Below are positions 19,866 through 64,000 of a stretch of DNA of 64,000 bases, one piece after another. Numbering within the stretch: the first letter of the stretch is position 1; each line of letters starts with the position of its first letter. Below the pieces are notes generated by a model, which was not told the DNA's origin, searched no databases, and saw nothing but the letters and a program-made list of their open reading frames with translations. The stretch lies in the NCBI GenBank assembly GCA_030248295.1, contig JASANH010000086.1, positions 62,001 to 126,000 of the forward strand, written 5' to 3'. The position numbers were made by a program, and so were the translations under genes. This DNA is from Mesodorylaimus sp. YZB2_4 (taxonomy: Eukaryota > Nematoda > Enoplea > Dorylaimida > Dorylaimidae).

Positions 19866-20937
19866 TTAGCGAAAATGCACTCGAGCAAAGTGAGCACAAA
19901 ACGCACTACCTGTATTGCGGTCAGCAGGTTGATGGTCAAATTGTTCCTCCTCGTCCTCACTCTCAGTCTGTTCATCTTGAACATCAAAGTCGTCATCATC
20001 CTTCCGTGATTTGGCGATGTTGTGTGGGACAGCGCAGGCAGCGATCACGCGACAAGCTCGGAGAGGCGACATTCGAATCTCGCTATGCAGAACATGGAAT
20101 CGACGTTTCCACATACCAAAACACCTTTCAACAACGCACCTGGTTCTTTTGTGTGCTACATTATATCGTCGCTGCTCGTCTCCGACTGGTGCCAGAAATG
20201 GGGTTAACAGCCAGGGACTGCAAGCGTATCCACTGTCACCGAGCAGAATTCCATGTCTCTGACAAGTCTCAAACTCCATACCAATCTTGCTACGCTTCAA
20301 TATCGTCGAATCATGGACACTACCAGGCCAATCAGCCACAATATTAAGGAATCTGCCCTCATGATCGCAAATACCCTGAACATTGATCGAGTGTTGTTGC
20401 TTGCGATTCACATACACGTGTTCCTGATCACCAATAGGTGCCAAAATTTTTATATGTGAGCCATCTATGGCGCCAACAACGCAAGGAAAATTCCCAATAT
20501 CAAAGAATCCTTTTGTAATTTTTCTTAATTCATGTTGATCATCTGGGAACTTGACAAAGTTATCCAACCTCCGACATATGGCTAATGAGAGCATAAACCA
20601 CTCGGCTAACTGTCGATTTTGATACCGCCATTAAAGTGTCGCCAATCACTTCCAAGAAACTCCCAGTCGCATAAAATCGAAGTGCTATGGCCAGTTGAGT
20701 TGCAGTTGACAAAGCATGACGATTAGTGATACGTCCAAGATCACTTTCAAATTCTTCGCATAAATATTTAAAAGTTTCCTTATGAAATCTAAACCGTTTT
20801 CGAAAATCTTCATCTAAGTAATAGTCGACTGGATTTATCCGATTTTGCTGAATTATTTTATATGGTCGCCTATTGTGAGCTGATCGAGCACTTATATCAA
20901 AAATAGGGATGATCGGCATGTATGGGAGCAAATTCAT
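19866..20937 (-). pseudogene. Harbinger transposase (DDE nuclease), one frameshift
   Basis: The protein begins at ATG 20937 with the N-terminal helices (RFRFHKETFKYLCEEF, LALRFYATGSFLEVIGD, SKSTVSRVV). It then changes frame in the overlap at 20560-20594. The second part carries the catalytic blocks VVGAIDGSHI, VADWPGSVHDS, LGDSGYACSPWLLTP and RCVVERCFGMWKRRF, ending at 19866 with an acidic tail. These are the signature blocks of the HARBI1/PIF family. The enzyme would cut and paste the element using the SANT-like partner. A short frame-restoring intron cannot be excluded. Confidence 0.85.
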
Positions 20938-25189: not shown

Positions 25190-25500
25190 AGCAGCATAGT
25201 ACATACCAAAATCGGTTGGATTTTAACGTGGCAACTTTAGGAATGCACCCTCTAAAAAGTTTAAGTCCGACGATGTCTGCTAGATGGTGGGAGGTTGGCG
25301 CCCCCTAGCGGCGCGTGTCTGGGGTGTCGCGTGGCTGGGTGGTGCGTCAGCTGTCTGGCGCCCCAAGGCGGTTGGCGAGCTTGTCAGCAGCTGTCTGGCG
25401 GCTCCCCCCCTCTAAGCGGTGGGTGTCTGGTTTTAGGGGGTTGGCCCTGGGAGACTGGTTATAGCCCGAGGGTGGAGGGTCGATCTCAAATATTACGCAA
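25190..25500 (+). repeat. Polinton left terminal inverted repeat
   Basis: This is 311 bp, gap-free against the inverse of 53986-54296, with differences near the tip (CACCCTCT/CACCCCCT), in GCCCCAAG(G/C)CGG and at the inner edge. Both repeats keep an apparent open frame, which is only a shadow of the shared sequence. Confidence 0.95.
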
Positions 25501-25735
25501 AGACGCGGGGCGCGCGTGGCGGTGCCAGGAGGCTATAGCTCGGGGCATAAAGTGAATCGGCTATGTTTTGAATCGTACTGTATACAGCAGGCGGAGACGC
25601 AACAAAAAGGAGACGGGACCGTTACGTATTGTCTGACGAAGGGAATTAGCGAGATGGGGTGCGCAATGGAAAAGAAAAATCATCCTTCATCATTTTTATC
25701 GGGCGTCGAGTCGGTTCAAAGTGGGCTAATCAAAA

Positions 25736-27661
25736 ATGCGTACAATTTTGATTTTCGTAAGTTTTTCGCATTGTTAAAAATTGGAAAATAATTTAATTTA
25801 AAATTTTTCAAGGGACTTTTTTCGATTGTGGGTGCTAGCGGCAATTGCCGTTGCTTATCCCAGCCTTCATCATCGCCCGGTTCAATCACCACCACGATGC
25901 TTCGATGCGATGGGGGGCCTATCTACTCGGTCGACGAATACAAAAAGTGCCAGACGGCCTCGACGATTTACCTTTATCGAATCTCCGACCCGTACAACGT
26001 CTGGGCGTTATTGGATATTCGAGATGTGGCGCCTCGGGCAACCAGATTGGAGGGCACGTTTTCGGATTACAACTGTCGCCAATTCTGTCAAAGCCGGTTG
26101 TTGAAAAGTTTTCAAGGTCGTGCCAAGACCAATTGCCGATGCGAGGAGTAAGTGTAATTGTACTAACTATATACGGAGCGAGTGGACTATATAATGGTGT
26201 GTAAGAACACTGAGCGAGATTTGTTTGTTTTACCTATAACTTGTAGGATCTCTGGAAAAAAGGTCGCTCGGCCGCCGACAGAATGGGGCTCTACTAGGCC
26301 CGCATCCGACCATTTTGTCCTAGCCGCCCAATTAGTCGACGCTTCCACGACCAGGCCCTTTATCGCAGCCACCACCACCACCAGGACATCCACCAGGGTC
26401 GCTTCCACGACCAGGCCCTTTATCGCAGCCACCACCACCACCAGGACATCCACCAGGGTCGCTTCCACGACCAGGCCCTTTATCGCAGCCACCACCAGGA
26501 CATCCAGCATGGCCGCTTCCACGCCCCTCGTCGTAGCCGTCATCACCACCGCACCAAGGGTGATCGCTTCCTCGTCCTCGACCCGGCGCTTTGAGGAGCC
26601 TAGTACTAAAAGTATGAGCAACGCTACGCCGAGGACGAGAAACGCAACGACGATGACAACGACGATCGATTCTACAACAGCCGAGCTATCGTCCCTAAAT
26701 TCCTCGGTGGCGTTAGCAGCAACAAGAGCAGTCGGCAAAACGCGTGGATCCCCATCCACAATGACAAATGTTAGAACGAAACGAGAAACTTCGCGATCCA
26801 GGTCGGTGCTTACTGAACTATTGTCGTTTTTGTTTGCAAAACACCTCGGAAAATGTATGTTTTTTTCATTTTAGCAAGCCTCAAGAACGTTTCCCTCTGA
26901 GCGGACCGACGTCGCTAGCCACTCAACACCTGGCCTACGCAAAATGGTGTCTATGTCAATCCGAAACTCCGTCAATTTCGGAAATAGAAGCTACCTTCCA
27001 GCCAACAAAACAGCTAGCCGACTCTCATCAAACGGGAGCTCAAAACGGTAGGTGGGTGGGGGGGGAGAGAGAGAGGACCCGCGTAGTGCGCGTGATCAAC
27101 TAAAATGTTACCTACTTTTTAGATGTTTCGCGACTTTCGGCTTCTAGTAGCAATGGTGCGGAGAGAATAGACGCGCCTGGTGCTTCAACTGCTACAATCG
27201 GGACCAGCACGACCCGCACCCCGAACACCTGGTCGTCGACAGCGCAAACCAATCCAGAGTCGACGACATTTGAAACTGGCGTGCAGAAAAAGGATACACA
27301 CAATGACGACCAACGATTCGGCGTCAAGGATTACGTATTGATCGTTTTAGTGGGCTTACTTATCGTTCTGGTCATCGCCGCTTCGATCAGTTTCCTAGTC
27401 TACAAGAAATGTTCGCCGCAGCGCGGTCGGCACTCGATCAACGTCCCCCCAGTCGTGATGAGCCATTTGTTGGCTCGTAATCGGACCCCATCTCCCCAAC
27501 CTGACCAACAAATTCGTTCGATACAAGGAGAAAATGAAGAAGAACGGGAACAAGCCGGTCCTTCTCACCGACCCCCTCCATCCCAACGAGCCGAGCGCGC
27601 CGTAGTGAGCGTAAAGGCTATTGTACACAAGAAAAATGAACCAAAATCGACTTGGGTGTAA
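25736..27661 (+). CDS. Membrane glycoprotein A: Cys-rich ectodomain, Thr-rich stalk, one TM
   Basis: My exon model is 25736-25756, 25813-26147, 26247-26801, 26875-27047 and 27123-27661. Every junction is GT..AG and frame is kept for 540 aa. Exon 1 plus the start of exon 2 form a signal peptide. Exon 2 encodes a domain of about 100 aa with at least seven Cys. Exon 3 is a mucin-like stalk rich in Thr/Ser/Pro with 20-residue repeats. Exon 5 holds a single transmembrane helix (about 27330-27400) and a proline-rich cytoplasmic tail of about 85 aa. It is a paralogue of the minus-strand gene at 42290-44238, with the same phases at the first two introns (0, then 2). It is probably a type I surface protein; roles in attachment or an envelope are inference. 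It is the leftmost gene and reads inward from the left inverted repeat. Confidence 0.78.
26341..26510 (+). repeat. 60-bp tandem repeat coding the Thr-rich stalk
   Basis: Bases 26341-26400 and 26401-26460 are identical, and a shortened third copy follows to about 26510. Each copy encodes 20 residues rich in Thr, Ala and Arg, the likely O-glycosylated stalk. Exact identity implies recent copy-number change. Confidence 0.9.
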
Positions 27662-27704: not shown

Positions 27705-30700
27705 TTACAAATCGAGGGCTGTTGTATGTACGCCGGAGGGCGAAACCACTCGTTTCACGTAAAAGCCAGTGACCCCAACTTTCACAACTTTGGTTGAGAA
27801 CACTCGCGAGGTTTTCTTGCAAAGCTTGAAGCCTCTGTTTTCGGTGATTGTCTCTTCGTTGAACAGAACGGCTTTCAGATAATTTTCTTTGCGTAGTTGA
27901 TTGATCTTTTGAACCCCTTTGGCTTTCCAGATGACTCCTTTCTTATTTTTCCTGATTACGTGATAGAGTTTGCTGGCCGGCGCCACGATCGATTCTCCGT
28001 CCAGCAATTCGGGTTTCCATCTCATGGGCGTGCTAAAAAAGAATAGTGTACTAAAAATATTGTTTTCCCAGGCTCGACTAGGCTTAACTATGCGGGCAGT
28101 TATTCTGGGACGCATTTTTAAAATGGACTCACAATTTATGTTCGGGCGTTAAAGCCAGAATTTTGTCCTTTGCCTCTTCATATTCGGCTCGATCCTCGGG
28201 TGCGACGTGATCATCCAAATTTTCGTGGCAGCCGGAGAAAAAGGCAGAGTCTGAAAAAAAATGTTGATGTACTCGATGTGCTAGTTTTCTATGCGCGTTT
28301 TGTATTACCCGTGTCGATAATGCTAAGGTCGACTTTGTCTCGAAAAAATCGAAATAAAAAATTCCACATGAATTTGTTTAGCTCAATTTCTACAAAAAAA
28401 AGAGAAAATGTGGGGACCGTGGGAATGTAAAAGAAAAACAGGTTCACTTACTCGCCAAGTTCAGGACAGCGACAGCCAAGTGGATAGGTACATTCATGCG
28501 CGATGCTCGTTTGGCCATCGTTACTTGATAGCACTTGTTCGGCACGATCGCAGTTGCGTGTCGAAAACGTGGTTGGGCGGCCAGTTTCAGCGCCTCCTCG
28601 CACGACACGATAACCACTTTGCTATGCTTTTTTCGGTCGATGCAAGTATAACCGTAAATGCAGTTACCTGAAAAAAAGATTTATATTTTAGAAAATAAAG
28701 AGCGTGGAAATTTATCGTTTGCTCAGTCGAGGTTGGTGCCTTTTTTTTGACCCCGCCCGCTATTTCCGATTTGGATGGGCTACATTTTAAAAAAAGCACT
28801 TGAATGGGTCGAGTAAATCTCACCCTATAAAAAATACTTACTTTCCAATTTTTTGGCGTTGCTTCTCGCCGATTGGCCTTGTTCTTGAGCTGAAACAAAC
28901 AAAATCACAAAATAGTAGCAGTATGCGCATCTACAGTACTCAAAACTAGTTTTTTCGCCCCATTTACTAGGTAAAGGCGCGGTCGATACTTACACAAAAA
29001 GGTGGAAAATTTGAAAACCTCAAAATTGTAGTTTTGGTTTTACCTCAAATTGCCTATTTTTTCCCAGAACTTAAACTATATATTAGGTGCGCATAACTTA
29101 CCGAGAATCCTAGCGTTCAGATTATTCATAAAATACTCCTTATAAATTGGGTTCAAGCGATAATAGATGGCTTGAGACACGTTTGTTACCGAAACGTTAA
29201 ATTCTTCCACCAAATGCTTCAAATAGGTGGTCAGAATCGTGACTTGTTTGGCCCCCAAAGTGCTAACCAGTAATCTTTGTGGTCGTTTCAATAGATTACG
29301 CTTCTCAGCGTAATCCTTCATGACTCCCTTCAAGTCGTTCCTGCCTTTAAGAAAAGGATAGAAATATTAAAAAATATTCTCACACGAATCGATTATCCGC
29401 ACTTTACCTATTTCACGATTCACAAAAATGGGAGGAAAACGTTGAAAATGAGCGCGTTTCTCCTGATCCTCGATTTCCAAATCGCAAGTCACGAAACCCG
29501 TGAATCGACCAGCCAAGACCAAGTTCAATAGTTGCTGTCCAGTTAGCTTATTTGGAATGTTGTAATAGGGGAATTCCTTTCGACAATATGCAATCAAATC
29601 CGGATCGCGAGGAATTTTGGGAAAATTAATATCATTGACCTTGGAATCGTGAATCATGCCTCGTTGAAGAAGAAATTCGCACTCGTACATTATGACAACC
29701 TTGTGATTGGCGAAGAGCGAATACTTTTGCAAATGTTCATCGATTCGGGCGGTCCGTTCTTGTCGTTCCGCCCATAGAATTTGATCAGATTCTGAGAGGG
29801 AGCGGTATCGACGTTCATGCGCCGGATCTCGACATTGATCGAGGGCGTGAGCGTGCCAAAAGCACTAAAACAAAATAAAAAAAGGTTTTCGTTTTATAAA
29901 AGAAGAAAATAATAAAAATTTGTCTTACCCCGTGAAATTGTTCAATAAGCTTGCAATTGGGACAATAAGCATCCACTGGAATGGACAATGGGCCTAATCG
30001 CAGTTCGATACCTGAAAAATGTTACCATAAGCGATTGTGAGATTAGCACCAACTCCACTCACCGCTATAATATCGCGAAATGGGCTGATGATTGTGACAG
30101 GTGCCGAGCGTGCGATGCAGGTGGCAGGAGTAGCTTAGCCATTCGACCACGCGTCTCCAATACAATTCAGTTTGGCAACTTTTCAAAATGGTCGTTTCCA
30201 ACGGATATTGGACATTTTCCTCCTCCTCCTCGCCCCACTTTTTCTCAGCATCGTCCAGACAGTCGATGAGCGCGTCCAACATGTCGGACGCAGTGTCCTC
30301 GATCATCGAATCGCCAGCCGGTCCGTTGCTTCCAACCATTGGAGTTGGATCGTTTTGAGATAAATGGCAATTATTGACAAATTGATCTCGATCAAAATTC
30401 ATTTCCTCCTCGTTTTGCAGCCGCTGCGACGATGGCGACTCGGCCGCTTGATAACGTGCGTTGGGACTGTGAGGATAGTCCGTCGTGGAGGATGAGGACC
30501 TCTCCTCAGCAGCATCCAGGCAGTCGATGAGCGCGTCCAACATGTCGGACGCAGTATCCTCGATCGTCGACTCGCCGCCGTCGCTTTCGTCACTCGCTCC
30601 CTTGCTTTCAGCCGTTGGAATTGGATTGGTTTGGAATAAATGTCCATTATTGATCGATTGCTCCCGATCAAAATTGAGCGCAGCGTCCGAGCTTATTTCT

Positions 30701-35357: not shown

Positions 35358-36826
35358 ATGAAAAAGTGGTTGGAAAAGCGACGAACCAAAGACGACGAGA
35401 TTCGTCATCTTTACACTGCGCTAGATTTCGACGATGGTGATAGGTCTGTTCCGGGGCCTTTAGGCGCGAAAAGGACATTTTACGAGGCCGTAAAAAAACG
35501 TTTTGGTCGTGTAAAGAAACGGACAGTGGATCGAGTGTTACGAGATAGCGCGGCCTACAATCGATTCAGATTACCCAATTGGAAATTTCCTCGTCGTCCA
35601 GTTGTTGCCTACAAGGTGGCTGAGGTTAGCGAAGCCATTTTACCTCATAGCTTACATTTGGTCTATGCTATTCTCTTTTCTCGGTTTCTTTTAGATTTTA
35701 CAACTCGATCTCGCTTTTATGAATGATTTGAGTCGGGCTCAAAGCTCGCCTTACATGTTGGTATGCACGTGCACCCTTTCGACGTTCACAATTCTTCGAC
35801 CACTCGCTTCGAAGACGGTCGAAGCCACCGCTAATGCCATGGAATCAATCCTGGACGAAATTGCTCGAGATGAACGTAAACGAGTAAAAATTATATTCTC
35901 AGACAAAGGTGAGACGGAGAATATCGATTTTTAATCTATAGTTTATGCTCGTTTTATTATTTTATTTCGTTAAAGAACGTTTTCTTTTTTTTCACGTATT
36001 TCAGGAGGGGAGTTTTGCGGACGCGCTTTCGATTCTATGCTTCAGAAGAGAGGCATTTTACATTTTCTCTCAACCGGAGGCATCGGCGCTCCACTGGCCG
36101 AGGCCAAGGTGCTTCAGTCGAAAAGACTAATTTACAAGTGAGTCACCAGACGCGTGCTGACGCATTTATCATTTATTCTGTCAAACTTTTAGATATTTGA
36201 GCGTACATACGAGGGACAATATTCGAAAACTATTGCCCGACATTCAGCGATTGATTAACGAGACTCCGAGCAGAGTTCTTCCTCAAAATTGGTCTCCCGC
36301 TCAAGTGTGGTCCGATCCAGAACGCAAAGGAGCATTGGTCGCTCATTTTCGATTCCAGAAGCGACGAGACAAATTTGAAAAATTAGGATACCCTAAAAAT
36401 TTTTCTTTTCAACTCCATGATGTCGTAAAATTGCAGCAAGATCAATTTGCTGGAAAATTGGGCACAAAAAGCTCCCAAGGACAAGTTTACGGGCCCGAAC
36501 TATGGACGGTTGTGGAACGCTTGCCGACCATTCCTCACACTTATAAGCTTCAAGATTCCGCCGGCCAGTAAGTAGTCTTTTTTTAATTGTCCCCTTTGTT
36601 GAGAAGGAAATTGATTTTTCTTGAAATCGGCTGAGTTAAAATGGATTCTGTAACGACGGGCCCGCCCGCCCACTTTTATAGAATGACCTACTTTAGGGAG
36701 GGGGTGTGGTGAGGTTTGTCAAGTTTTCTCGCGCGACCCTCGTTGTTTCTTCTCGATAGAAAATGGCAGATGGTATTCGAGTTGGTTTCGGATGGGCAAA
36801 ATTCCGAGGCAAAACTAGTAACTTAA
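35358..36826 (+). CDS. INT: Retroviral-type integrase of the Polinton
   Basis: Exons 35358-35624, 35695-35908, 36005-36137, 36193-36567 and 36760-36826 give 351 aa with every junction in frame. The N-terminus is basic and helical. The DDE core has the first Asp in QLDLAF (exon 2), the second in FSDKG at the end of exon 2, and the Glu in the PLAEAK block about 33 residues later (exon 3). The C-terminal part has the VVKL..GPELWTV..YKL layout of an SH3/chromo-like module, finishing in a short last exon. It would join the element ends to the target with a 6-bp stagger, which matches the TCTGTG duplication seen. ATG 35358 is the first in frame. The catalytic triad is intact. Confidence 0.93.
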
Positions 36827-42289: not shown

Positions 42290-44238
42290 TTAAACTTTGC
42301 TAACAGCAGCAGTTTCAGACATGATCTTGGTCCAATTCGAATCTATAAATTCGAGATCATAAATAGTCAATATCAAAATATAGGCATTTATATCATCAAC
42401 ACGATCCGAGTCAAAATGTAAAGCCTCTAAAAACTTGGCAATTTTTTGATACATGGTTTTTGAGCTCATTTTCTTTAGTGATTGGATTTTTGTGTGGGGG
42501 AAGCAATGTAAAAAATTTGCCATCAATATTGAACGGGGTAGTTTTCTCGCGTTTTTGTCCAAACTATCATCAAAAATTCGTTTGTAAATATCTCCAAAAC
42601 TCATTAGCGCATAAATCGAGTCTTTATCTATAAATATGTGTAAAATAATTATAATGGTAAATGTGACTGCGCTATATTGTAATAATTTAGTAGATTACCC
42701 GTTGTGAGTGGTTTCCTCAAATAGAATCCATCCGGCCATTTTGAATCTGGTATTGGTTCATCGATTTGTATAGTACTTTTTTCGTTAGATGTTGAGGGCA
42801 ATTCTAAAATTGAGCAAAAAATTTTTAAAATGTAAATAAGAAATAAGGGCGGTTGTTTCTTTAGTTTTACCTCGTTTATCATATAATATTTCTTCGTCAC
42901 TGCTCGAAGACAAGTTAGGACTGTGGAGTTGTGGTGAGCTAACCAGAGCCGATGCGCCGTCTTTTGTGTAGGAATCGAATGGGTTTTCAGTACGCACTAT
43001 GTTTTTCGGTTTCACATCCCTCTGTTTCGAAAACTGTCCTGATTTAAATCGCTGTAAATTTTCAAATATTTTTCGCTCCTGCGTTCTCTAAAAAATGTGA
43101 TCTGATCTGATCCGACAGGTAAGGACACACAAGTTATGTGGTCTGACAGGTTGTGATGAGGACACACAACGAGTTGACACGCATAACTTATGGTCTACCC
43201 ACCCACAAAGACATAGTAATTACTAGACTATAGTATCGCAATCAATCATAAAAATCGCTACTTACAAGAAAAGCCTCGTTTCGTCGAGGTGCATGGGGGC
43301 GTCGCTGTCGATTTTGACAAAAAATTCTAATACGATGCCGACATAAATAAATTGTAATGGAACCGGAAGACAAGGCGATTATTCCCATGATGGATGAAAT
43401 ATATTCGATTATAGTAATTGTTAGCGTCCTGTCTTGATCTAGGGTAGTGGGAGGCGATGCGGGAGAATGTTCAATGGATTGCAAACCTTGAAGCTGGCTT
43501 TTTGTCATAAGTATTCTGGTGGTGGTGGTGGTTGTAGTGGTGTGGGTTGGTTGAGAGCTTTGATGGAAACTGAAATAAAAGAAAATAAAAAACCGAGGTT
43601 AAAAAAAAGGTTTAACCCTTAGTTGGTCCAACTGTTAGCACCATCAAGTTGCAACAGTAAGATGCCTATGCTAGAAGATAGTTCTTCCCCCAGTAGTCTC
43701 TGGACCCAAGAGTTGGACCAACTAAGGGTATGAGCGTAGTGTATATGTGAGTGAGGGAGTGAGCAAGTGAGTGAGTAACTAGATGAACTTACGTTGATTG
43801 AAGTGATACTAGTGCCGACTGTTGCAGTCCGCAAAATTGTTGGCAGTTGTGAATGATAAGACCGACAAATGTGCGGAAGAGTTGAGATTTGCAAAATTCT
43901 CGACAGTTGAAATCATTTAAATTTGCATTTAATCGAGTTGCGCTCGGAAGTAATTCTTGAATGTTGAAAGTTGACCAGGAAGCATCAGAAATTCGAAAAA
44001 AATAAATAGCCGATGGATTTTGGCACGTCAGATACTGCGATCTGTCAATGATCGGGCCACCGCTGCACTTGAGGATGATATCCGCTCCGCTCGAACTAAC
44101 GCACTCACATTTTCCCGATACACCATCGGTCATCTACGTACGTGAGAAATATGTTTAAAAAACCGAAGAAAATACAAAAAAACCAATTACCTGAATGCCA
44201 TAATTTATTACCGAAAAAATCAAAAATAAGCCAACCAT
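42290..44238 (-). CDS. Membrane glycoprotein B, paralogue of A with a long tail
   Basis: Exons (minus): 44238-44191, 44133-43793, 43569-43266, 43051-42871, 42803-42699 and 42627-42290, giving 438 aa in frame. Exon 1 is a hydrophobic signal peptide. Exon 2 carries the same Cys-rich domain as glycoprotein A, sharing GGPI, CQ, IY-x-x-RISD, ATRL, NCR-x-FC and NC. Exon 3 begins with a Thr run and holds one transmembrane helix (IIEYISSIMGIIALSSGSITIYL). The tail is longer than in A: a Ser/acidic segment, then a helical domain of about 100 aa (exon 6) that I do not recognise. Introns 1 and 2 have the same phases as in gene A, so one gene arose from the other. It is convergent with the capsid gene. 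Confidence 0.76.
43616..43728. mobile_element. 113-bp foldback element inside a glycoprotein B intron
   Basis: An 18-bp end (CCCTTAGTTGGTCCAACT, 43616-43633) is perfectly inverted at 43711-43728. It sits in the intron between exons 2 and 3. No clear target duplication is seen. It is followed by a GTGAGTGAG low-complexity stretch. Confidence 0.6.
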
Positions 44239-46479: not shown

Positions 46480-47020
46480 CTTGGTCAACACATAGGAAAA
46501 CTAGCGAAAAGGTGGAAGACGGGCGCTCTGCAGACGAAGCATTGATAAGTTACGCTCATGGGGTGATGCTCGGCAATCATGCATACTATAGTTCTCATTT
46601 ATATTTTCAAATCTTTCTACAGTAACCTCGCTCAGGGCGTACAAGAGCGAAATGCGAGTGCAGCCGGAACACGTCGTTTCTGTCTAGGTCGTACATGATT
46701 TATTATGTCCATGATTTATTATGTGACATTTAGTAAGTGATCGATTAATGGGACAATCTCCGGCGCCACCAAGTCGACTAATAACTCCTATCGCGCAGCA
46801 GATCGTGCACGTGAACTAGAAGATGAAAACTTGGGTCCTTTTTTCCAAAAACGAAAAAGCCTACATCACACACATGCGAGAAGTTGAGGCTTTCACGTGA
46901 CTAGCGACAGATGGCATATAGTTTTCTTGAGACAATGAAAAAAACTGGAATTTGTCCTGTGTAGTTTTTGAAGCTCGTTTATTTTTCAAAGAATAATTGA
47001 TTGCCTGAGGGATCCAAATA
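46480..47020. other. No recognisable gene
   Basis: Only short frames are present. The right end leads into the TATA box at 47025. Confidence 0.4.
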
Positions 47021-47024
47021 GGGG

Positions 47025-47032
47025 TATATAAG
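47025..47032 (+). promoter_or_regulatory. TATA box
   Basis: TATATAAG stands 41 bp before the ATG at 47073, placing a start site near 47055-47060. It probably drives the small membrane protein and/or the dual-frame genes downstream. Confidence 0.65.
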
Positions 47033-47072: not shown

Positions 47073-47213
47073 ATGCTATCGATCGGCGACGAGCTCCCAA
47101 CTACCCCCGTTTTACCTCTATCGACCCCGAGTATTGCGATTATTGCCCTAGTTTTTGTTCTCGCACTTGGTATTATTATCTGTACTCGCAGAAGTATTGC
47201 GTGCGCCCTCTAG
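47073..47213 (+). CDS. 46-aa single-pass membrane protein
   Basis: The first ATG after the TATA box opens a short frame. It has a 20-residue polar start (GDELPTTPVLPL), one strong transmembrane helix (IAIIALVFVLALGIIIC) and a short basic tail (TRRS), predicting an outside-N, inside-C topology. It is 45 bp upstream of the next ATG (47258), so both may come from one mRNA. No family is recognised. Confidence 0.55.
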   Translation: MLSIGDELPTTPVLPLSTPSIAIIALVFVLALGIIICTRRSIACAL

Positions 47214-47257: not shown

Positions 47258-49585
47258 ATGTCCGGCGGCAGTCACGAGGACGCCGTCGTCGAGTCACTCA
47301 TCCGAGGTCATCTTTGCCTCGCTCACGAGCAATTCATCATTGTCTCTTCGCACCGCCCCACGCCAGCCATTCATCAACGTCAAAAGTCAGACGAGTCCGG
47401 AGCGTCGCTGGCGTGTCCACTCTTTCGAGAAAAACTCGAACAGAGCTCACTTTTGACCTCTTTTTATCGCGAACTGACGACGTGTTTAAGTCCGGCTGTA
47501 ACGAACAACCAAGAAAACGAATATCTGATTGCCGTATTGGAAGCGAGATTAATCGATCGAATTGCTGAAGTCACTATAATCACATCGAATCGCACCATCA
47601 CTTATTCCCACATTTGTCAGTCCAACCAACCAACGGCCCGAACTGAAATCGAGCATGTCGAACAATCCTCAGCTGAAATCGAAAAGGCCGTCTTTGTCGC
47701 CCTCGGCCGACCCTTCCTTCATTGCTGCGTCTGGAGCCCAGAAAAGGCTGAAAGAAGCGAAAGACGAGCGAGTGGACAAAGTGGAGAAGATGCTGAAACA
47801 GATAGACGAGGAGGAGATGGGCGAGGAGCAGGATTTGGAAGTCAGAGAACGGGAACCAGTCAAAAAACCTTCGAAACCGTCCTTGAGCGCTTTGGAAGCG
47901 TTTATGTGCTCTTCAGAAACCGATTCGACAACTGGGCAAGAGGACGAAACTCCCAGGATCAACGAGTAAGCATAGTTTTGACACAATTATAAAATCAGAT
48001 ATCATACAGTGTACGCTTTTTTTAGGCATATTTTTGTGAGGAAACAGGACGGGGGATGGGAACGTCGCGAATGGAAGAATGTGACTCTACCGGTCGGAGC
48101 GTATGTCAAAACAGTAACCGTCCATCAGCCCTGCACATTGTCGACAGTCTACTCGGAAATGACTGTAACGCCGTCAAATGGAGAAAATTCCTCACAGGTA
48201 TGATGCGTAGTTGACGGTACACCGCATAGTCTATTGGGTCGAGTCGGGTCTGCATAAAAAACGCACGGAATAGAAAATATTCTCATCGTTTAACAAGCAC
48301 CCTCGTTTCAGGAATTACTTCGTTCCGCAAGCAGTTTGTGGACGAGAGCCGGGGGTATTGCAACGAGCGTGAGTGGACAAACAGTGCTGAAGAAGTATCC
48401 GAATCGTTTGCAAGTGTCCGATGTAATCAGCGATCCCAGCCTGGATCGTACGACGAAGTGGATCGAGTCGAATTGTTCCACATCCAAAAAACAGTGGCGT
48501 GCTGGCAAAAATACCTATTAGCCGTCAGCATTGATCAATTGAGGACACACGCGTTCGAAGCCCGTTTTCTCCCGGTAATTGCTTTTCTCGCCAGCCCTTG
48601 GTTTTTTGAAAACGTAGAGTTAGTGGAAAGCAGCGTTAAACAATCTCTAAGCAGCCTGAAACAGCTCGGCTTTTTAGCCTTGATTCAAAATGCGAATTTA
48701 TCTGAAAAATTTTATTTTGATTTTTTAAACTGTAATCATGTCTTGCAATCATTGAATATGTTGAATAAGCTTTTTGTCGATTCCCAAGCAGCAGGTCCCG
48801 CATCCGTGAGGCTGTTTTTTTCTTCCCTCGTCAGCTTTCTCAATCGAACAGCCTCTAGCCAGCGGTGTTTGGTTTTCGTGGGATCGGGGGCTTTAATGAT
48901 GGGTAGACTTCTAGCCAAGCTACTCGTGTATTATACGACTTATAGTTTCTTTTTCACGCCCCCATCCTTGGATGTGGTCAGGCGGGACAACTTCAACGCA
49001 ATTCTTTTGTATGAGCTGGTACCGACAGAGGATAATGCTAGAACCTTATCGAATCTCCTTTTCGATCCCAGCCCGAATGACCCGTTTGTGTTTGTGATTT
49101 TTAATTTGGATGAAACAAAAAACGCATTTTTCGATGGGTGCAACTTCTTAGCACACGGACACGAGACCCCCGAAGTTAGAAATGCCTGTTGCTGGTTCAC
49201 GAATTTGGAATTTTCTGATGACATAGGAACGAGAGATCTAAACCCGGGCTGCTTGCTTCCATTTCTGATACAGGAAGAATACACCCTATTCTCCCAACAT
49301 TCCGTTGCTAATGAACTTGATATTCAAAGGCGAGATAAAACGCAGGAACTGAGTCAAAACGAAAAAGAAGAAGAAACCCCCCCAGGATTGTCCCATTTTT
49401 CTGGTAGTTTTGACCATCGTCGAGCTAAGCTGAGACTGCGTAGACCCAAGAAGCTTCACCTTTTTGCAAACCTAAGGCGACGCTTATTTCGAGGTCCGCA
49501 GGGGGAACCATCTTGCTCATCCGCTGCTGCTCCCATGAATTCGGCTTCCGCGCCGTCTTCCCCCCGCTCGTCCATATCCGATTAG
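47258..49585 (+). CDS. Large unknown protein, frame 1 of an overlapping pair
   Basis: Exons 47258-47965, 48026-48197 and 48312-49585 give 717 aa with all junctions in frame. The N-terminal third is Cys/Ser-rich, the middle is Arg/Gly-rich where it overlaps the second gene, and the C-terminal half (48522 on) is a folded-looking alpha/beta domain read in this frame only. That part contains CLVFVGSGALMMGRLLAKLL, then NAILLYELVPTED and FVFVIFNLDE, spaced like the A, B and C motifs of superfamily 3 helicases. The usual Walker A GKS/T reads MGR, so ATPase activity is doubtful. A basic Pro/Ser tail closes it. The helicase link is a hypothesis only. Confidence 0.66.
47655..48521 (+). CDS. 230-aa protein in the alternative frame of the same exons
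   Basis: Starting at ATG 47655, one base offset from the larger gene, this frame uses the same two introns (exons 47655-47965, 48026-48197, 48312-48521) and stays open through all three. It has a Lys/Glu-rich coiled-coil-like stretch (KRLKEAKDERVDKVEKMLKQIDEEE) and an acidic Ser/Thr region. Exons 2 and 3 read as a beta-rich domain (WKNVTLPVGAYVKTVTVHQP). Its composition looks more protein-like than the other frame in the shared part of exon 1. Leaky scanning past 47258 could express it. No family is recognised. Confidence 0.6.
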
Positions 49586-50707: not shown

Positions 50708-51775
50708 TTACTTATTCAAGTAGTCTCTTGCTGCTTTTTCGAACGCGATCATTTGTGGCAGCAGAATGAGACCGCGACCGAGTCCACGGCACCCGTGTGG
50801 CAGCTTTAATTGGGCGAGGTAATCGTCACGAAGTTCTTGACTTCCACTGAGCAGTGCGCCCATCGAGAAGCGCCCCACGCCTCCCATATTTTCACCCCCC
50901 GAAGCTCCCACCACGTCTTGGACATCGTCCGAGGCGGGCGCGTGGCGGGCGGTGGCGGAGAGCGGAGGTGTGGTGTTAAGGGTGGCGGCCGAAGCCCACG
51001 CGTCAGCGGGGCACGAAGGAGGTGGTGGTGTGGTGCTAGGGGTGGCGGCCGAAGCCCACGCGTCAGCGGGGCACGAAGGAGGTGGTGGTGTGGTGCTGGG
51101 GGTGGCGGCCGAAGCCCACGTGTCAGCGGGGCACGAAGGAGGTGGTGGTGTGATGCTAGGGGTGGCGACCGAAGCCCACGTGTCAGCGGGGCACGAAGGA
51201 GGTGGTGGTGTGGTGCTGGGGGTGGCGGCCGAAGCACACGCGTCAGCGGGGCACGAAAGAGGTGGTGGTGTGGTGCTGGGGGTGGCGGCCGAAGTCCACG
51301 CGTTAGCGGGGCACGAAAGAGGTGGTGGTGTGGTTTGAATTGAATTATCATCGTCGTCGTGGCCTGGGGGGATTGGGGACCACGGTAGCAAAGCACGATT
51401 ATCAAAAACACTGTCCAAAACGGGTTCGTGGAGGGCGGCGGCGACGCAAGAGAGCGGAGGACCTTTGGTATTAGGGGCGGCCAAAGCCCACGCGTCACGG
51501 GGCGACGGAGGAGTTGCTGTGTGGGGGGCAGCCGAAGCACCAGGCCGCAGCGGTGGCGGGTGGGCGTGTTCGACTCTAATGACAGAGCCATAGAGCATCG
51601 ACTGATTTAATTGCTGGACGGCGAGGTCGGCGTCTTTGGCGCGTTTGAATGTGATAAAGCCATACGGATGGGTGTCGCTGATCCACGCGCGCACGATCGG
51701 TAAGGGCGCGAAATGGCTCTTGAAGGCCCCGATGGTAAGGCCGCTAGGCAAATTTCCGATGAAAATTTTAGCCAT
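50708..51775 (-). CDS. RRM RNA-binding protein with Pro-rich repeats
   Basis: This is an intronless 355-aa frame from ATG 51775. Residues 1-72 are a full RNA recognition motif: RNP2 is KIFIGNLP and RNP1 is PYGFITFKRA, with the DADLAVQQLN helix after it. Then comes a Pro/Ala region and about six or seven 20-aa repeats of the TPPP(L/P)SCPA(D/N)..A type. A basic-hydrophobic end follows (GCRGLGRGLILLPQ). The RRM binds RNA or ssDNA; the repeats are probably disordered. A TATAAA word lies at 51899-51904 on the minus strand, about 125 bp upstream. RRM proteins are not part of the known Polinton core, so capture from a host gene is likely. Confidence 0.88.
   Translation of the reverse strand: MAKIFIGNLPSGLTIGAFKSHFAPLPIVRAWISDTHPYGFITFKRAKDADLAVQQLNQSMLYGSVIRVEHAHPPPLRPGASAAPHTATPPSPRDAWALAAPNTKGPPLSCVAAALHEPVLDSVFDNRALLPWSPIPPGHDDDDNSIQTTPPPLSCPANAWTSAATPSTTPPPLSCPADACASAATPSTTPPPPSCPADTWASVATPSITPPPPSCPADTWASAATPSTTPPPPSCPADAWASAATPSTTPPPPSCPADAWASAATLNTTPPLSATARHAPASDDVQDVVGASGGENMGGVGRFSMGALLSGSQELRDDYLAQLKLPHGCRGLGRGLILLPQMIAFEKAARDYLNK
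50950..51340 (-). repeat. 60-bp tandem repeat in the RRM gene
   Basis: There are about 6.5 units of 60 bp (GGGGTGGCGGCCGAAGCCCA.. on the plus strand) differing by single bases. All are in frame, so repeat number changes protein length by 20 residues. Long open frames on the opposite strand are by-products. Confidence 0.93.
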
Positions 51776-51898
51776 TAAAACCGTTATCTAAAAAATTCTT
51801 TTAATAGTGGGGCGAAAATAGATAAAACAAAAAAGCAAATCAGATTTTAATCTACATTACAAGAGAGAACAAAAGCGCAAAGCGACGATGCAGCGCAG

Positions 51899-52248: not shown

Positions 52249-53964
52249 CTACAGTTTATTCAAGAGCGACTTTTGCATTTGCTTTAAAAGCACGCTAGGC
52301 CGTTTCGACGGATGAAAAGCGGGGCTATAATCGAGACCGGATTTTACAAAAAATGTGCACAAATTATACAGCTCCCTAGGTCTGGGCGCGTGGCTTCTCG
52401 AATCGACGCTAAAATACAGTAAAACATCGACGATCGGCGTACTCCCCATAATCATTTCCCCCGGAGAATTGGGGCGTAGAGAAGGAAACGATAAAATACC
52501 GGTCTCTGGATGCAATCGAATTTTGAGTTTGCGAAAAATTTTGGCCAATTTTAACATGCGAATTCTTACAGCGGCCGGTAGGGAAATCATGGAAGGAATG
52601 GTTGAATTCATAAGCTCTTGATAAGCATCATTTTTTGCCTGACTACTACCATTACCATTGACGGTTGTTCGATGGTGAGAATCGGGATAGAGCGCATGAG
52701 GAGCGGGGCTAGTCGAATCTCGTCTTTCCATCACCAGCTTTCGCTTTTTTACTAAGCCGATACCAATGCGGGGATCCATCGATTCAGCTTCGTCCTCCCA
52801 TCGCCGTTTGACCTGGTCGATATTGGCAGCGCCAGAAGTGATCGGCGGAGGTGATTTCGTGAGCATATCCAAATCCCGTTGACTCAAAAGATAAAATGTT
52901 TTCAGCCCCGATTTTCCATTTGCGGAGCCGGCTTTGTTATCGGCGGCATTGCTAGCATCGCCTTTAGCCATATTATTAGTAAAGTCGTTGAGGGTTCCAG
53001 GAGGCGGATAAACTACAGTCAATGCGGAAATAATTCTTTGCCGCCAAAGAACGTAATTCTCTCCTTCCTTCCTATCAATATTGACCGATTGTCGTCGTTC
53101 AAATTGCGGCTTAATCACATTAGCAGTGACCACGAGAAAGGGAGCTAATCTGGGCGAATAATTGAGAAAAAGATGTCCAATTTTTGGGTTTGCCTCCTTC
53201 GTTGACTCGTCCACGCTGGCTCGCTCGACCGCTCTCGTGTAAGCTTCCAAGAGAAAACTTTTGGGAAAATTTGATTGATACGAAAATGTATGCAAAGAAT
53301 GAATATCGCGAGCCAAACGAGTAAATACAAAAGCCTGAAAAAATCACACATGTTTGCGTTCTTTGAAAAAAGTTTAAATTCCCGCCAAACGCGCCGAGTG
53401 TGCCCGTTCTACAGTAGGATTTAAAAGGCGTGGGGGGGTGCTTACTTTGAGATTTTTCAGAATCGAACTTCCAAATTTTGACTTGTTATAAATCGATTGA
53501 CTTATCAAAATTAAATTCGTGTTGCTATGATGCACACCGCCTTTGACAAAATCGTTCATTAAAGCCGATGCGTAAGCTTGGTCGTCCAGGTCGTCGAATA
53601 CGACGCACGAAAATGGTTCGATATAACCCTCGAAAAATTGACGGTCCGGGAATCCTCGATAAAATATTATCTTATCTTCCAAATTCTTTTTCAAATAATC
53701 GTATAAAGTTTGATAGAATGAATAAAAGAAATATATTTTCGAAAATTTGTTTTCAAAATATCTGGCCGAATCCACTAATAGCCAACATAGCAACGAAGTT
53801 TTGCCAGAACCTAAAAAATATAAATTTTTTATTTCCAAAATTTTATATAATTTAAGGCTCCTACCAGTCGGACCAAATATTCCCACGCTCGTTCCTCCAC
53901 CTATCAAATACTGTTTACGGCTCAACTTAAATGATAAAAAGTTTTTCTTGTCAATTATAGTCAT
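52249..53964 (-). CDS. ATP: FtsK/HerA-type packaging ATPase with long C-terminal extension
   Basis: Exons (minus) 53964-53865, 53810-53446 and 53334-52249 give 516 aa in frame. The P-loop (GPTG plus SGKTS) is split by the first intron. Walker B is SCVVFDDLDDQ, followed by the NTNLILISQS sensor-like strand. Exon 3 starts with AFVFTRLARDIHSLHTFS and a GHLFLNYSP strand, completing the ATPase core. The remaining 280 residues begin in a linker and end in a helical block (MLKLAKIFRKLKIRLHPETGIL.., GSTPIVDVLL). That block resembles in outline a separate small Polinton protein, so this may be a fusion. The ATPase would pump DNA into capsids. Its start is only 22 bp from the right inverted repeat. Confidence 0.9.
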
Positions 53965-53985
53965 CTTTTTTTCTATCAGTTTTTT

Positions 53986-54296
53986 TCGCGCAATATTTGA
54001 GATCGACCCTCCACCCTCGGGCTATAACCAGTCTCCCAGGGCCAACCCCCTAAAACCAGACACCCACCGCTTAGAGGGGGGGAGCCGCCAGACAGCTGCT
54101 GACAAGCTCGCCAACCGGCTTGGGGCGCCAGACAGCTGACGCACCACCCAGCCACGCGACACCCCAGACACGCGCCGCTAGGGGGCGCCAACCTCCCACC
54201 ATCTAGCAGACATCGTCGGACTTAAACTTTTTAGGGGGTGCATTCCTAAAGTTGCCACGTTAAAATCCAACCGATTTTGGTATGTACTATGCTGCT
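53986..54296 (-). repeat. Polinton right terminal inverted repeat
   Basis: This is 311 bp, the inverse of 25190-25500, ending at AGCAGC on the minus strand. It ends 22 bp before the ATPase start, so it probably contains that gene's promoter. Confidence 0.95.
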
Positions 54297-60960: not shown

Positions 60961-61342
60961 GTCATAAAACACTCACCCCGAACGTCACCCGCCAAGTCAA
61001 TCATTCAGATCACTCCCAGGGCATATAAAAAGGATACTAAAAATATGAATAGTCACTTTTTTGAAAACGTTTACCATGAAATGCCTTTTCCTATGACGCT
61101 CTTCTGCCTCCGAAACAAGTCAGGCCCTTCCAAAGGAGCGTCGCTCCAACAAAAAATGAGAATCAGTGGCATGAGGAAAAAACGCCCCCCCCCCCCCCCG
61201 CCCCTCCCCCCGCACCCCCCGCCCCCATCATTTCGTTGTAAGGTGTTGGGTCTTATTTCCCATTTTGCTTCGAATCAGTTTGCTGTCTCTCTAAAAACCC
61301 CTTTCTCAAAATACTGTTATTGGAAGCCGGACTATTTCGAAA

Positions 61343-61560
61343 ATGGCCGACAGCGTCCAATCTCAAAAGGGAAAACGAAAGCTGGTACATGAAAATCATA
61401 TTTACGTGTTCCCAAAAAAGGCGAAAAACGAACTCAAAGGGATATGGGTTTGCGAAAAGCGATCTGGCTGCAAGGGTCGTGTTTGGACGAACTGAGTCGA
61501 TGGAGAAGTGGTCAAGATTGTCACCGGACAATCATGCCGCTCAAGCTGCGCGTCCATAGG
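61343..61560 (+). pseudogene. FLYWCH zinc-finger exon, left-arm copy
   Basis: From ATG 61343 the frame reads MADSVQSQKGKRKLVHENH, then FPKKAKNELKGIWVCEKRSGCKGR and a stop. The HAAQAA end of the finger follows in another frame. It is the inverted duplicate of 63403-63609 and is cut off from any transposase. Confidence 0.7.
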
Positions 61561-61611
61561 CGCTGCGAATTATGGAAGAAGTCAAGGAGCGAGCATCGAC
61601 CGCACATGAAT

Positions 61612-62170
61612 TTTGGGAAGGCGGTTTCCACAAACGCCTCGTCCGAATGGTGAAACAATGCATCCGACAATCTATCGACTATGCCACTCAGACCCCCTCT
61701 TAACTGCGCACCTTTGCTAGCGAAATCGAAGCGATCTTGAACTCGCGCCCTTTTGCCTATGTTGGCTCAGATCTTGGCAATAGAAAGTACCTAACTGAGC
61801 AATTATTCCTTTCGACTCGGACATCCGCTTTTATTAATGGCACTGTTTCAGCCCAAGACCAATTCCGAAACACCAATCTCGTCGCTCTATGGAAAAAGAG
61901 CCAATTATCTCGATATGTTTTGGCAATGCTGGCATCGTCAATGCCTGACATCTTTAATGGAAAGGTCTGGATGGACACATCTACAGCCCCGGACTCGATC
62001 ATTTACTTCCCTTGTTTTGGAGAAATGGTCCTTGTCAAGTTCCCCACGCCACGAATGCAATGGCCTCTCAGGGAAATCATCAAATTTTAGGTAGGAAAGG
62101 ATGGATTAGTCCAAAAAGCATTGGTTAAAGTTCCTTCTGGACGTAAACTTGAAACCGCTTGAAAACACAA
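61612..62170 (+). pseudogene. BEL/Pao integrase C-terminal fragment
   Basis: The frame WEGGFHKRLVRMVKQCIRQSI, then EIEAILNSRPFAYVGSD and LTEQLFLSTR, then GEMVLVKF and GLVQKALVKVPSGRKLE is the usual end of a BEL/Pao Pol (integrase core end plus C-terminal domain). A stop near 61700 and another at 62088-62090 break it. It begins exactly where the left MULE arm stops matching the right arm. Confidence 0.72.
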
Positions 62171-62519
62171 CAGACGCAAACACAGCTAGCATGTCAGAAG
62201 GACGCATCTGAAGTATAAAAGAACGTTCAAAGTATTATGTAAATTGTATCTGAACGGTTTCCTTCTAGTTCATTTTTTCTCTAATTTAGATGTCAAGGTC
62301 TGAGTTTGTGTTATCGTTCTGACGCCGTTTTCTCTGAACTAACTCGCAAGTGTACTTTATCTCTTTTGGGTTTCCTCCCATATACTATATTGAAATTAGT
62401 GAATGGGTATCCGCTGGGTTTAGCGGCTCTACTGGAATCTGTGACCTCCGAATCCCCCAGACATAATTGGGGAGTGATTGACTTGACGCAAGGCAGTGGC
62501 CACAGCCTGATGCTTTAAA
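62171..62519. other. No recognisable feature
   Basis: This is AT-rich sequence inside the MULE; perhaps an LTR remainder of the BEL/Pao fragment. Confidence 0.3.
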
Positions 62520-63173
62520 TCAAGCGTACGCTGGTATATGTTCCACAATTCGATTATAAAAGCTGGGGGCCTGACGACCTCGGCGTTGCCTCCGACCAAT
62601 GTACACGTCTTCGAAATAATTTGCGATCGGTAAAGCATCTTCAGGAAACTCTCCATTTTCGACAAGCTCCTCGAATGCGTTGACAACATCGGCAGGAGGA
62701 ACAAATGCCAGAGCTGGTATCATTCGGATCCAACAGGCGAAATCGTGATCGTTCGAGTACCTCTCTTTCAGGCCTTCGCTTTGAACCTTTCTCCAGACGC
62801 ATTGAGCCAAATGGAAAAAACACCCAATCTTGGCAATGCCTTGAAATTCCTGGTCAAAAGCCTGCAAAGCGGCTCGCTCAAAGTCAGTCATAAGCCTAGC
62901 AGGATGCAATCCAGGCTGTAACTTTTTCAGCTCCTGTAAGAGCTTCACGTATGTCGCCCGAGTCTTGTTTGGCAGCAGAGCATGAACGACAGGAATCACC
63001 GCATTGTACTTAATGACGTGAATAGTGTAAAGCTGATGCAACAAGCTGGGGGTGGTACTGAACGTGCCATCGGCGAACCAATGCAAGCTTTCGGCTAATA
63101 ATTGCAGATTAGCCCGCGTTGAAAAAAAGAGCATCCGGCCAGGAAGCAGTTCGTCACCAGAATCATACATCAA
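62520..63173 (-). CDS. MULE transposase catalytic region
   Basis: Blocks WFADGTFSTTPSLLHQLYTIHV (first Asp), PVVHALLPNKTRATYVKLLQEL, LMTDFERAALQAF (second Asp) and GCFFHLAQCVWRKV are the MULE DDE signature. They continue to a Glu-rich region and stop at 62520. The frame from about 63173 is open for 217 residues. The FLYWCH exon (63609-63403) lies upstream on the same strand, but a frame break or intron separates them, so the intact protein is not shown here. The enzyme would act on the long inverted arms. Confidence 0.82.
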   Translation of the reverse strand: MMYDSGDELLPGRMLFFSTRANLQLLAESLHWFADGTFSTTPSLLHQLYTIHVIKYNAVIPVVHALLPNKTRATYVKLLQELKKLQPGLHPARLMTDFERAALQAFDQEFQGIAKIGCFFHLAQCVWRKVQSEGLKERYSNDHDFACWIRMIPALAFVPPADVVNAFEELVENGEFPEDALPIANYFEDVYIGRRQRRGRQAPSFYNRIVEHIPAYA

Positions 63174-63402
63174 AAAACGTTGATTCGCGCCCTTGATCGT
63201 AATTTCCTGATACGCTTCAGGAATAACAAGATCGCGCGTCTTGCAGGCAGGCTTTCACCAACGTTTCGGTATTTCTAATCGTCTTCCGATCTTTCCTGGA
63301 GCACGCGGCGACGTTTTTATGCCAGCATACAGCAGCAACGATTTGCTGCGGCAATTCATGTGCGTCGATGCTCCTCCTTGACTTCTTCCATAATCGCAGC
63401 GC

Positions 63403-63609
63403 CTATGGACGCGCAGCTTGAGCGGCATGATTGTCCGACAATCTTGACCACTTCTCCATCGACAGTTCTCCACACCCCTTGCAGCCAGATCGCTTTTCGC
63501 AAACCCATATCCCTTTGAGTTCGTTTTTCGCCTTTTTTGGGAACACGTAAATATGATTTTCATGTACCAGCTTTCGTTTTCCCTTTTGAGATTGGACGCT
63601 GTCGGCCAT
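63403..63609 (-). CDS. FLYWCH zinc-finger exon of the MULE transposase
   Basis: ATG 63609 opens a frame with HIYVFPKKAKNELKGIWVCEKRSGCKG and, further on, DNHAAQAA. The Trp-Cys..Cys..His pattern is that of FLYWCH fingers, the DNA-binding part of many animal MULE transposases. A stop comes at 63403, about 230 bp before the catalytic frame, so splicing or a frameshift is needed to join them. Confidence 0.72.
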   Translation of the reverse strand: MADSVQSQKGKRKLVHENHIYVFPKKAKNELKGIWVCEKRSGCKGCGELSMEKWSRLSDNHAAQAARP

Positions 63610-64000
63610 TTTCGAAATAGTCCGGCTTCCAATAACAGTATTTTGAGAAAGGGGTTTTTAGAGAGACAGCAAACTGATTCGAAGCAAAATGGGAAATTGC
63701 CAAGATCTCCCATATACGTAGCTCGCTTTTATACTTGACACAACTGCTGACCCCAGGTCATTTGTTTGGTCTAAAATGATTTAGGTCAGGGGGCGAGTTG
63801 CGGCGGGGGCGAGTTGTGAGGGGCGAATTGTGGGGGGGGGGGGGGGGGCGTTTGTTCCTCATGCCACTGATTCTCATTTTTTGTTGGAGCGACGCTCCTT
63901 TGGAAGGGCCTTGACTTGTTTCGGAGGCAGAAGATGCGTCATAGGAAAAGGCATTTCATGGTAAACGTTTTCAAAAAAGTGACTATTCATATTTTTAGTA

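Follow-up and report, generated by a model that had tools for sequence, protein, structure and literature searches.

Three spliced exons of a Polinton/Maverick-type element in a nematode genome are open in two reading frames

Background

Can a mobile element of a eukaryote encode two different proteins in two frames of the same spliced exons and, if so, how would ribosomes reach both? A locus in Mesodorylaimus sp. YZB2_4 raises this question. Viruses, some DNA viruses included, offer familiar examples of dual coding on this scale, which here spans 230 codons in three spliced exons. Adenovirus E1B encodes the unrelated 19K and 55K proteins in overlapping frames of one early mRNA by use of an alternative AUG, and in insect parvoviruses, the NS1/NS2 genes nest a small protein in the other frame of a larger one, with expression via leaky scanning. 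Overlapping genes expressed via leaky scanning are well known in viruses (PMC8227390). For Polintons, no paper on overlapping genes was present among the literature matches listed for overlap, overprinting and leaky scanning, although other papers may report some, and term searches of two related articles (PMC8097293 and PMC11071296) found no use of "overlapping".

Methods

The window analyzed is a stretch of 64,000 nucleotides, comprising bases 62001-126000 of contig C211 in a 145-Mb assembly, and copies of the locus were sought in the same assembly. Exons were compared in each frame with eleven copies using tblastn, with exon 1 of copy C350 matched as two pieces in the identity comparison. 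The tables of stops, fourfold-degenerate sites and dN/dS cover copies other than C353a (5'-truncated), C353b and C915 (decayed, with incomplete exons) and further partial matches. Values of dN/dS were computed for comparisons other than those with C535 and C628 and four pairs centered on C634. In codon shuffles, synonymous codons were permuted while the protein of one frame was preserved.

Results

Two frames share three exons and two introns

The larger frame, f0, encodes 717 amino acids on the plus strand in exons 47258-47965, 48026-48197 and 48312-49585. The smaller, f1, lies in the +1 frame relative to f0 and encodes 230 amino acids on the same strand, from an ATG at 47655 to a TAG stop at 48519-48521. 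The first 132 codons of f0 exon 1 (47258-47965) precede the overlap, and the f0 start has a weak context with T at -3; f1 exon 1 (47655-47965) opens with an ATG that has A at -3. Intron 1 (47966-48025, 60 nt, GTAAGC...TTTTAG) and intron 2 (48198-48311, 114 nt, GTATGATGCG...TTTCAG) are common to f0 and f1. Both frames are open in exon 2 (48026-48197) and in the part of exon 3 that ends at the f1 stop (48312-48521), after which f0 is the sole open frame for its C-terminal part of about 354 amino acids (48522-49585). The overlap covers 690 coding nt and the stop codon of f1, and the third frame contains 13 stops over the same exons.

These findings agree with an initial annotation of the locus, which had placed frames of 717 and 230 amino acids one base apart, with the same exon bounds and about 690 nt of spliced overlap; both introns have GT..AG ends. 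It had also pointed out that frame is kept over both introns. This is true of f0 and f1, but it is not independent evidence, since a splice that preserves one frame preserves the parallel one. The telling point for dual frames is that f0 and f1 are open on either side of each intron. A further remark, that the smaller frame ends 63 codons before the larger becomes the sole frame, does not match the sequence, in which f1 stops at 48521 and f0 alone continues to 49585.

The openness of either frame does not follow from the protein of the other alone. When the f0 protein was preserved, the f1 stretch was open in 131 of 20,000 synonymous shuffles; when the f1 protein was preserved, f0 was open in none of 20,000, with a mean of 12.3 stops. 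The f0 frame of the window is open in the overlap beyond chance in this comparison, to which copy C634, described below, provides a contrast.

The arrangement recurs in copies elsewhere in the genome

Both f0 and f1 were found by tblastn in seven copies (C535, C628, C585, C335, C336, C234 and C350), with identities in the overlap exons of 73-95% for f1 and 66-96% for f0. Upstream of the overlap, f0 is more diverged, with identities of 38-93% by piece. An eighth and more distant copy, C634, has 79% identity in exon 2 and 75% in exon 3 for f1, versus 58% and 49% for f0. The use of the same splice sites by both frames, as initially annotated, holds up among the copies: both junctions are identical in eight of nine, the ninth being C353b, in which intron 1 was not resolved. 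In eight copies, intron 1 measures 63-92 nt and intron 2 measures 112-126 nt. Since three does not divide several of these lengths, the exons of the copies join in frame only when spliced. Seven of eight copies end f1 with TAG, and C628 has AAG in that position. Both frames, both predicted introns and the order of the starts thus recur among the copies.

In six of the eight copies (C585, C335, C336, C234, C350 and C634), f1 is conserved above f0 in all three exons; this is the case in two of three exons for C628 and one of three for C535, where f0 is conserved equally or better in the other two. These counts bear on the disfavored explanation that f0 alone is translated, with f1 arising incidentally from the codons that f0 uses. 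The 131 open shuffles show that such a by-product can arise, and conservation in C535 is in keeping with it; the predominance of f1 conservation in the other copies, the f1 dN/dS of about 0.25 reported below and the persistence of f1 in C634 despite a broken f0 make it highly improbable.

Constraint on f1 is clear and constraint on f0 is less firm

Fourfold-degenerate sites of f0 changed far less inside the overlap than outside it. Between the window and C585, 60 of 128 such sites differ outside the overlap (16/35 before it and 44/93 after it) and 11 of 76 inside (Fisher p = 2e-6). Outside and inside values were 58/127 and 10/73 for C335 and 56/127 and 11/74 for C350. C234 repeats the C585 picture, as does C336 in the part before the overlap; values after the overlap in C336, and both before and after it in C634, were left out because amino-acid identities of 0.16-0.22 made these parts impossible to align. 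C535 (1/62, 8/112 and 5/92) and C628 (3/58, 7/110 and 5/94) are too close to the window for this contrast. Changes at f0 codon positions 1, 2 and 3 numbered 31/28/49 and 96/67/151 outside the overlap and 49/18/28 inside, a shift from position 3 to position 1 (p = 1e-4 for C585 and 3e-5 for C350) that is as expected if the constraint on f1 were the stronger.

An overlapping-frame count of dN/dS gave f1 dNN/dNS ratios of 0.23-0.32 in all six copies computed, with none of 500 bootstraps reaching 1. For f0 in the overlap, dNN/dSN in the six copies was 0.47, 0.57, 0.58, 0.74, 0.75 and 0.82, with bootstrap probabilities of a ratio of at least 1 of 0.014, 0.036, 0.054, 0.068, 0.206 and 0.236, respectively, so that P < 0.05 was reached in two of six; five of the six copies form one clade and are not independent, and ratios that use sites silent in both frames depend on about 4-5 of them. 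Sites in the overlap that are silent in f1 change no less than introns (22/85 versus 29/131, p = 0.62), which counts against a strong claim for f0. The initial annotation had proposed codon-substitution analysis of both frames as a check on its claim, and the outcome is divided: constraint on f1 is clear, but rate constraint on f0 is weak.

Stop counts are better evidence for f0 than rates. Without constraint on f0, the 43 f1-silent changes would be expected to create 4.2-4.4 f0 stops. No f0 stop is present in C335 or C234 (P = 0.012-0.015), two near twins that were chosen for the comparison on account of being open. The comparison applies to open copies alone, since f0 has two stops in the overlap in each of C336, C535 and C628 and three in C585; the two in C336 or three in C585 are compatible with the unconstrained expectation. 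The f1 frame also carries stops in the overlap, with two in C628, one each in C585 and C234, and at least two plus a 1-base deletion in C350. The deletion confounds per-frame stop counts in exon 1 of C350, whose f0 piece 150-236 is free of stops. Taken as patterns of substitution, these data indicate that f1 is clearly under purifying selection and suggest, less firmly, that f0 is also kept open in the overlap.

The weak rate constraint on f0 would also fit an explanation in which f1 alone is translated through the overlap, the two ends of f0 come from other transcripts, such as one from which the overlap is spliced out, and f0 is open by inheritance. Three copies in which the N- and C-terminal stretches of f0 are nearly adjacent, with shared breaks at 47410 and 48946, can be cited in its favor. 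We consider this explanation quite unlikely, given that no f1-preserving shuffle left f0 open, that C335 and C234 lack all of the f0 stops expected, and that C634, with its incomplete f0, shows decay of that frame.

Decayed and deleted copies

Relatives in which one of the two frames is full of stops had been put forward in the initial annotation as evidence against dual coding, and C634, taken alone, is such a copy. Its overlap has seven stops in f0, against an expectation of 8.1 for an unconstrained frame, and one in f1. However, its blastn homology to the window corresponds to the f1 gene (about 47645 to 48522), and the C-terminal part of f0 was not found within the 4 kb fetched; downstream, the sequence past the f0 end resumes, as in C350 and C585. 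Because the copy lacks the C-terminal part of f0, we interpret its stops as a sign that f0 was lost here. In this one case, the frame of an incomplete f0 has decayed while f1 was mostly retained. Among more distant or broken copies, of which only parts were compared, f0/f1 stops numbered 3/3 in C353b, 2/2 in C418, 4/4 in C618, 4/3 in C513, 5/1 in C915, 2/1 in C231, 1/0 in C379 and 1/1 in C860.

The three copies with shared breaks, C716, C665 and C314 (loci L067, L068 and L070), have identical break points. The f0 N- and C-terminal stretches almost abut, f1 and the middle of f0 are missing, and a pyrimidine-rich linker lies between the stretches. This gap may be one inherited deletion or the trace of a splice form.

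Start sites suggest leaky scanning

Upstream of the pair on the plus strand, a CACGTG box (46894-46899) is present in all ten aligned sequences (the window and nine copies other than C350), and a TATA-type box, TATATAA (47025-47031), in nine of the ten, a deletion having removed it in C535. The first ATG opens a 46-aa ORF (47073-47213, plus strand) in a weak context, with T at -3 and C at +4. Its peptide, in which one hydrophobic stretch was judged by eye, has relatives of at least 30 amino acids in five copies: 96% identity in C628, 54-57% over 35-38 amino acids in C350, C234 and C336, and 32 amino acids with the start deleted in C535. The relative in C335 spans 17 amino acids only, and the frame or start is lost in C585 and C335.

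The starts follow in the order 47073 (46-aa ORF), 47258 (f0) and 47655 (f1), and the 397 nt between the f0 and f1 starts contain no ATG. Shuffles of 47258-47655 that preserved f0 had a mean of 3.5 ATGs in this interval and none in 154 of 20,000. The interval is likewise free of ATGs in C535, C628, C336 and C585, and has one in C335, C234 and C350. In C634, C353b and C915, the f0 start was not recognized and several ATGs are found upstream. The base at -3 of the f0 start is T or C in the window and seven copies, and that of the f1 start is A throughout, in the window and in each of the ten copies compared. The layout is the one expected for leaky scanning, with weak upstream AUGs, a better downstream AUG and none between, C335, C234 and C350 being exceptions. 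Judged from these contexts, leaky scanning is the likeliest mode for f1 translation.

Both proteins could also be made with f1 read from its own mRNA, produced by an internal promoter or by splicing into an acceptor-like site, TTTGTCAG, that ends at 47620, 34 nt upstream of the f1 ATG. TCAG occurs at this place in nine of eleven sequences. The site lies within f0 codons, which could preserve it, and C634 and C915 lack it while retaining the f1 start. A separate mRNA would moreover account neither for the lack of ATGs nor for the order in which the start contexts occur, and we regard it as unlikely. An exact search of the whole genome for the nematode spliced leader SL1 returned no matches.

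The host element

The pair lies in a Polinton/Maverick-type element of 29,107 bp (25190-54296) that is flanked on both sides by a 6-bp target site duplication, TCTGTG, in direct repeat. Its terminal inverted repeats of 312 nt (25190-25501 and 53985-54296) are 99% identical and 28.5 kb apart, and its ends read AGCAGC...GCTGCT (AG...CT). Vertebrate Mavericks likewise have terminal inverted repeats, 6-bp target site duplications and AG/CT end motifs (PMC8097293). Intact vertebrate Mavericks are reported there to be intronless, whereas genes of the present element appear to contain introns.

The polymerase exon pieces had no Pfam polymerase match, one piece had no PDB match, and the PolB-like exon had no relative in IMG/VR. 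A minus-strand exon junction at 28309/28250 would give DTDSA, which we take to be a PolB motif. The ATPase-like piece (53377-54021) matched Pox_A32 with an E value of 0.034, below the cut-off, and the integrase-like piece (36161-36568) had no relevant Pfam or PDB match. We take these frames tentatively, on weak scores, to be polymerase, integrase and ATPase genes, and membership in the Polinton/Maverick group therefore rests mainly on the ends. There were no capsid or protease Pfam matches among the element ORF pieces scanned. The polymerase-like C-terminal exon has 23 matches elsewhere in the genome, and its distance to the gene pair is about 20 kb in C350, about 14 kb in C234 and 19 kb in the window, with identical order and relative strand.

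Other ORFs of the element include two related, cysteine-rich frames at 25792-26148 (plus strand) and 43792-44133 (minus strand), which are 43% identical over 103 aligned positions and are possibly duplicated surface proteins. An RRM protein (50711-51787, minus strand; Pfam E = 9.3e-9) contains about six copies of a 60-bp repeat, across which alternative frames are open too, probably as an effect of the repeat. The same probably applies to a 60-bp tandem repeat at 26167-26874, where both strands have long ORFs. A DDE_Tnp_4 transposase ORF (19869-20630, minus strand; Pfam E = 2.8e-36), presumably Harbinger-like, is found outside the element, about 4.5 kb to its left. A second mobile element (61035-64000) has inverted arms of about 530 nt or more that are 1.8 kb apart, with the right arm reaching the window end and a MULE transposase ORF (62523-63254; Pfam E = 4.8e-12) between the arms.

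The two proteins

No Pfam domain was found in f0 exons 1 and 3 or in f1 exon 1. Relatives of the pair outside this genome were not found among viral contigs (IMG/VR, searched with f0 exon 3) or in a set of 5.8 billion proteins, which was searched with f0 exon 3, with f1 (E values up to 10) and with whole f0 (best 7,996 candidates scored). An f0 exon 3 profile had three matches among solved structures, with a best E value of 0.54, and these were taken as chance; a single-sequence AlphaFold2 model of f0 exon 3 alone had a pLDDT of 37 and was unusable. The C-terminal part of f0 contains GALM(M/F)GRL in all three sequences compared, a motif that resembles a P-loop minus the lysine. On the basis of motif spacing, f0 was considered as an SF3 helicase and rejected as anything beyond a lead: it departs from the Walker A pattern GxxxxGK(S/T), the lysine being absent in all three sequences, and has no Pfam match. 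That f0 is a dead ATPase would be a guess, as would an early, regulatory or replication-linked role for the pair, which is suggested by the arrangement only.

Discussion

We think it likely that f0 and f1 constitute one gene of a Polinton/Maverick-type element, in which two frames of one spliced mRNA are read by leaky scanning to give two proteins. In the proposed mechanism, a single gene would yield a single spliced mRNA. Ribosomes moving from the cap would bypass the weak ATG of the 46-aa peptide, and some would then bypass the second weak ATG, that of f0; those that bypass both would meet 397 nt without an ATG and may initiate at the better f1 ATG. In f0, the stretch that encodes f1 would act as a linker, joining the N-terminal 132 to the C-terminal 354 amino acids. 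Both products would thus be translated, and each may have a function.

This arrangement resembles adenovirus E1B in its overlapping frames and choice of AUG; the likeness is one of arrangement, with no sequence relation claimed. Unlike in E1B, the smaller frame starts second, inside the larger one, and extends over three shared exons. A nested small frame is also the point of likeness to the insect parvovirus NS1/NS2 genes, from which the pair differs in that f0 exons 1 and 3 have no Pfam domain.

With regard to origin, f1 is possibly the older frame, and f0 may have been born by the fusion of upstream and downstream frames through f1, with overprinting in the form of a long linker. We put this forward tentatively; it fits the conservation of f1 above f0 in six of eight copies and the survival of f1 beyond f0 in C634.

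Conclusions

Our analysis of sequence conservation suggests that a virus-like element in this nematode obtains two proteins by reading the same three spliced exons in two frames, and that both readings matter. A genome with many copies, in one of which f0 is lost and f1 is kept, provides a natural experiment on how each frame constrains the other.
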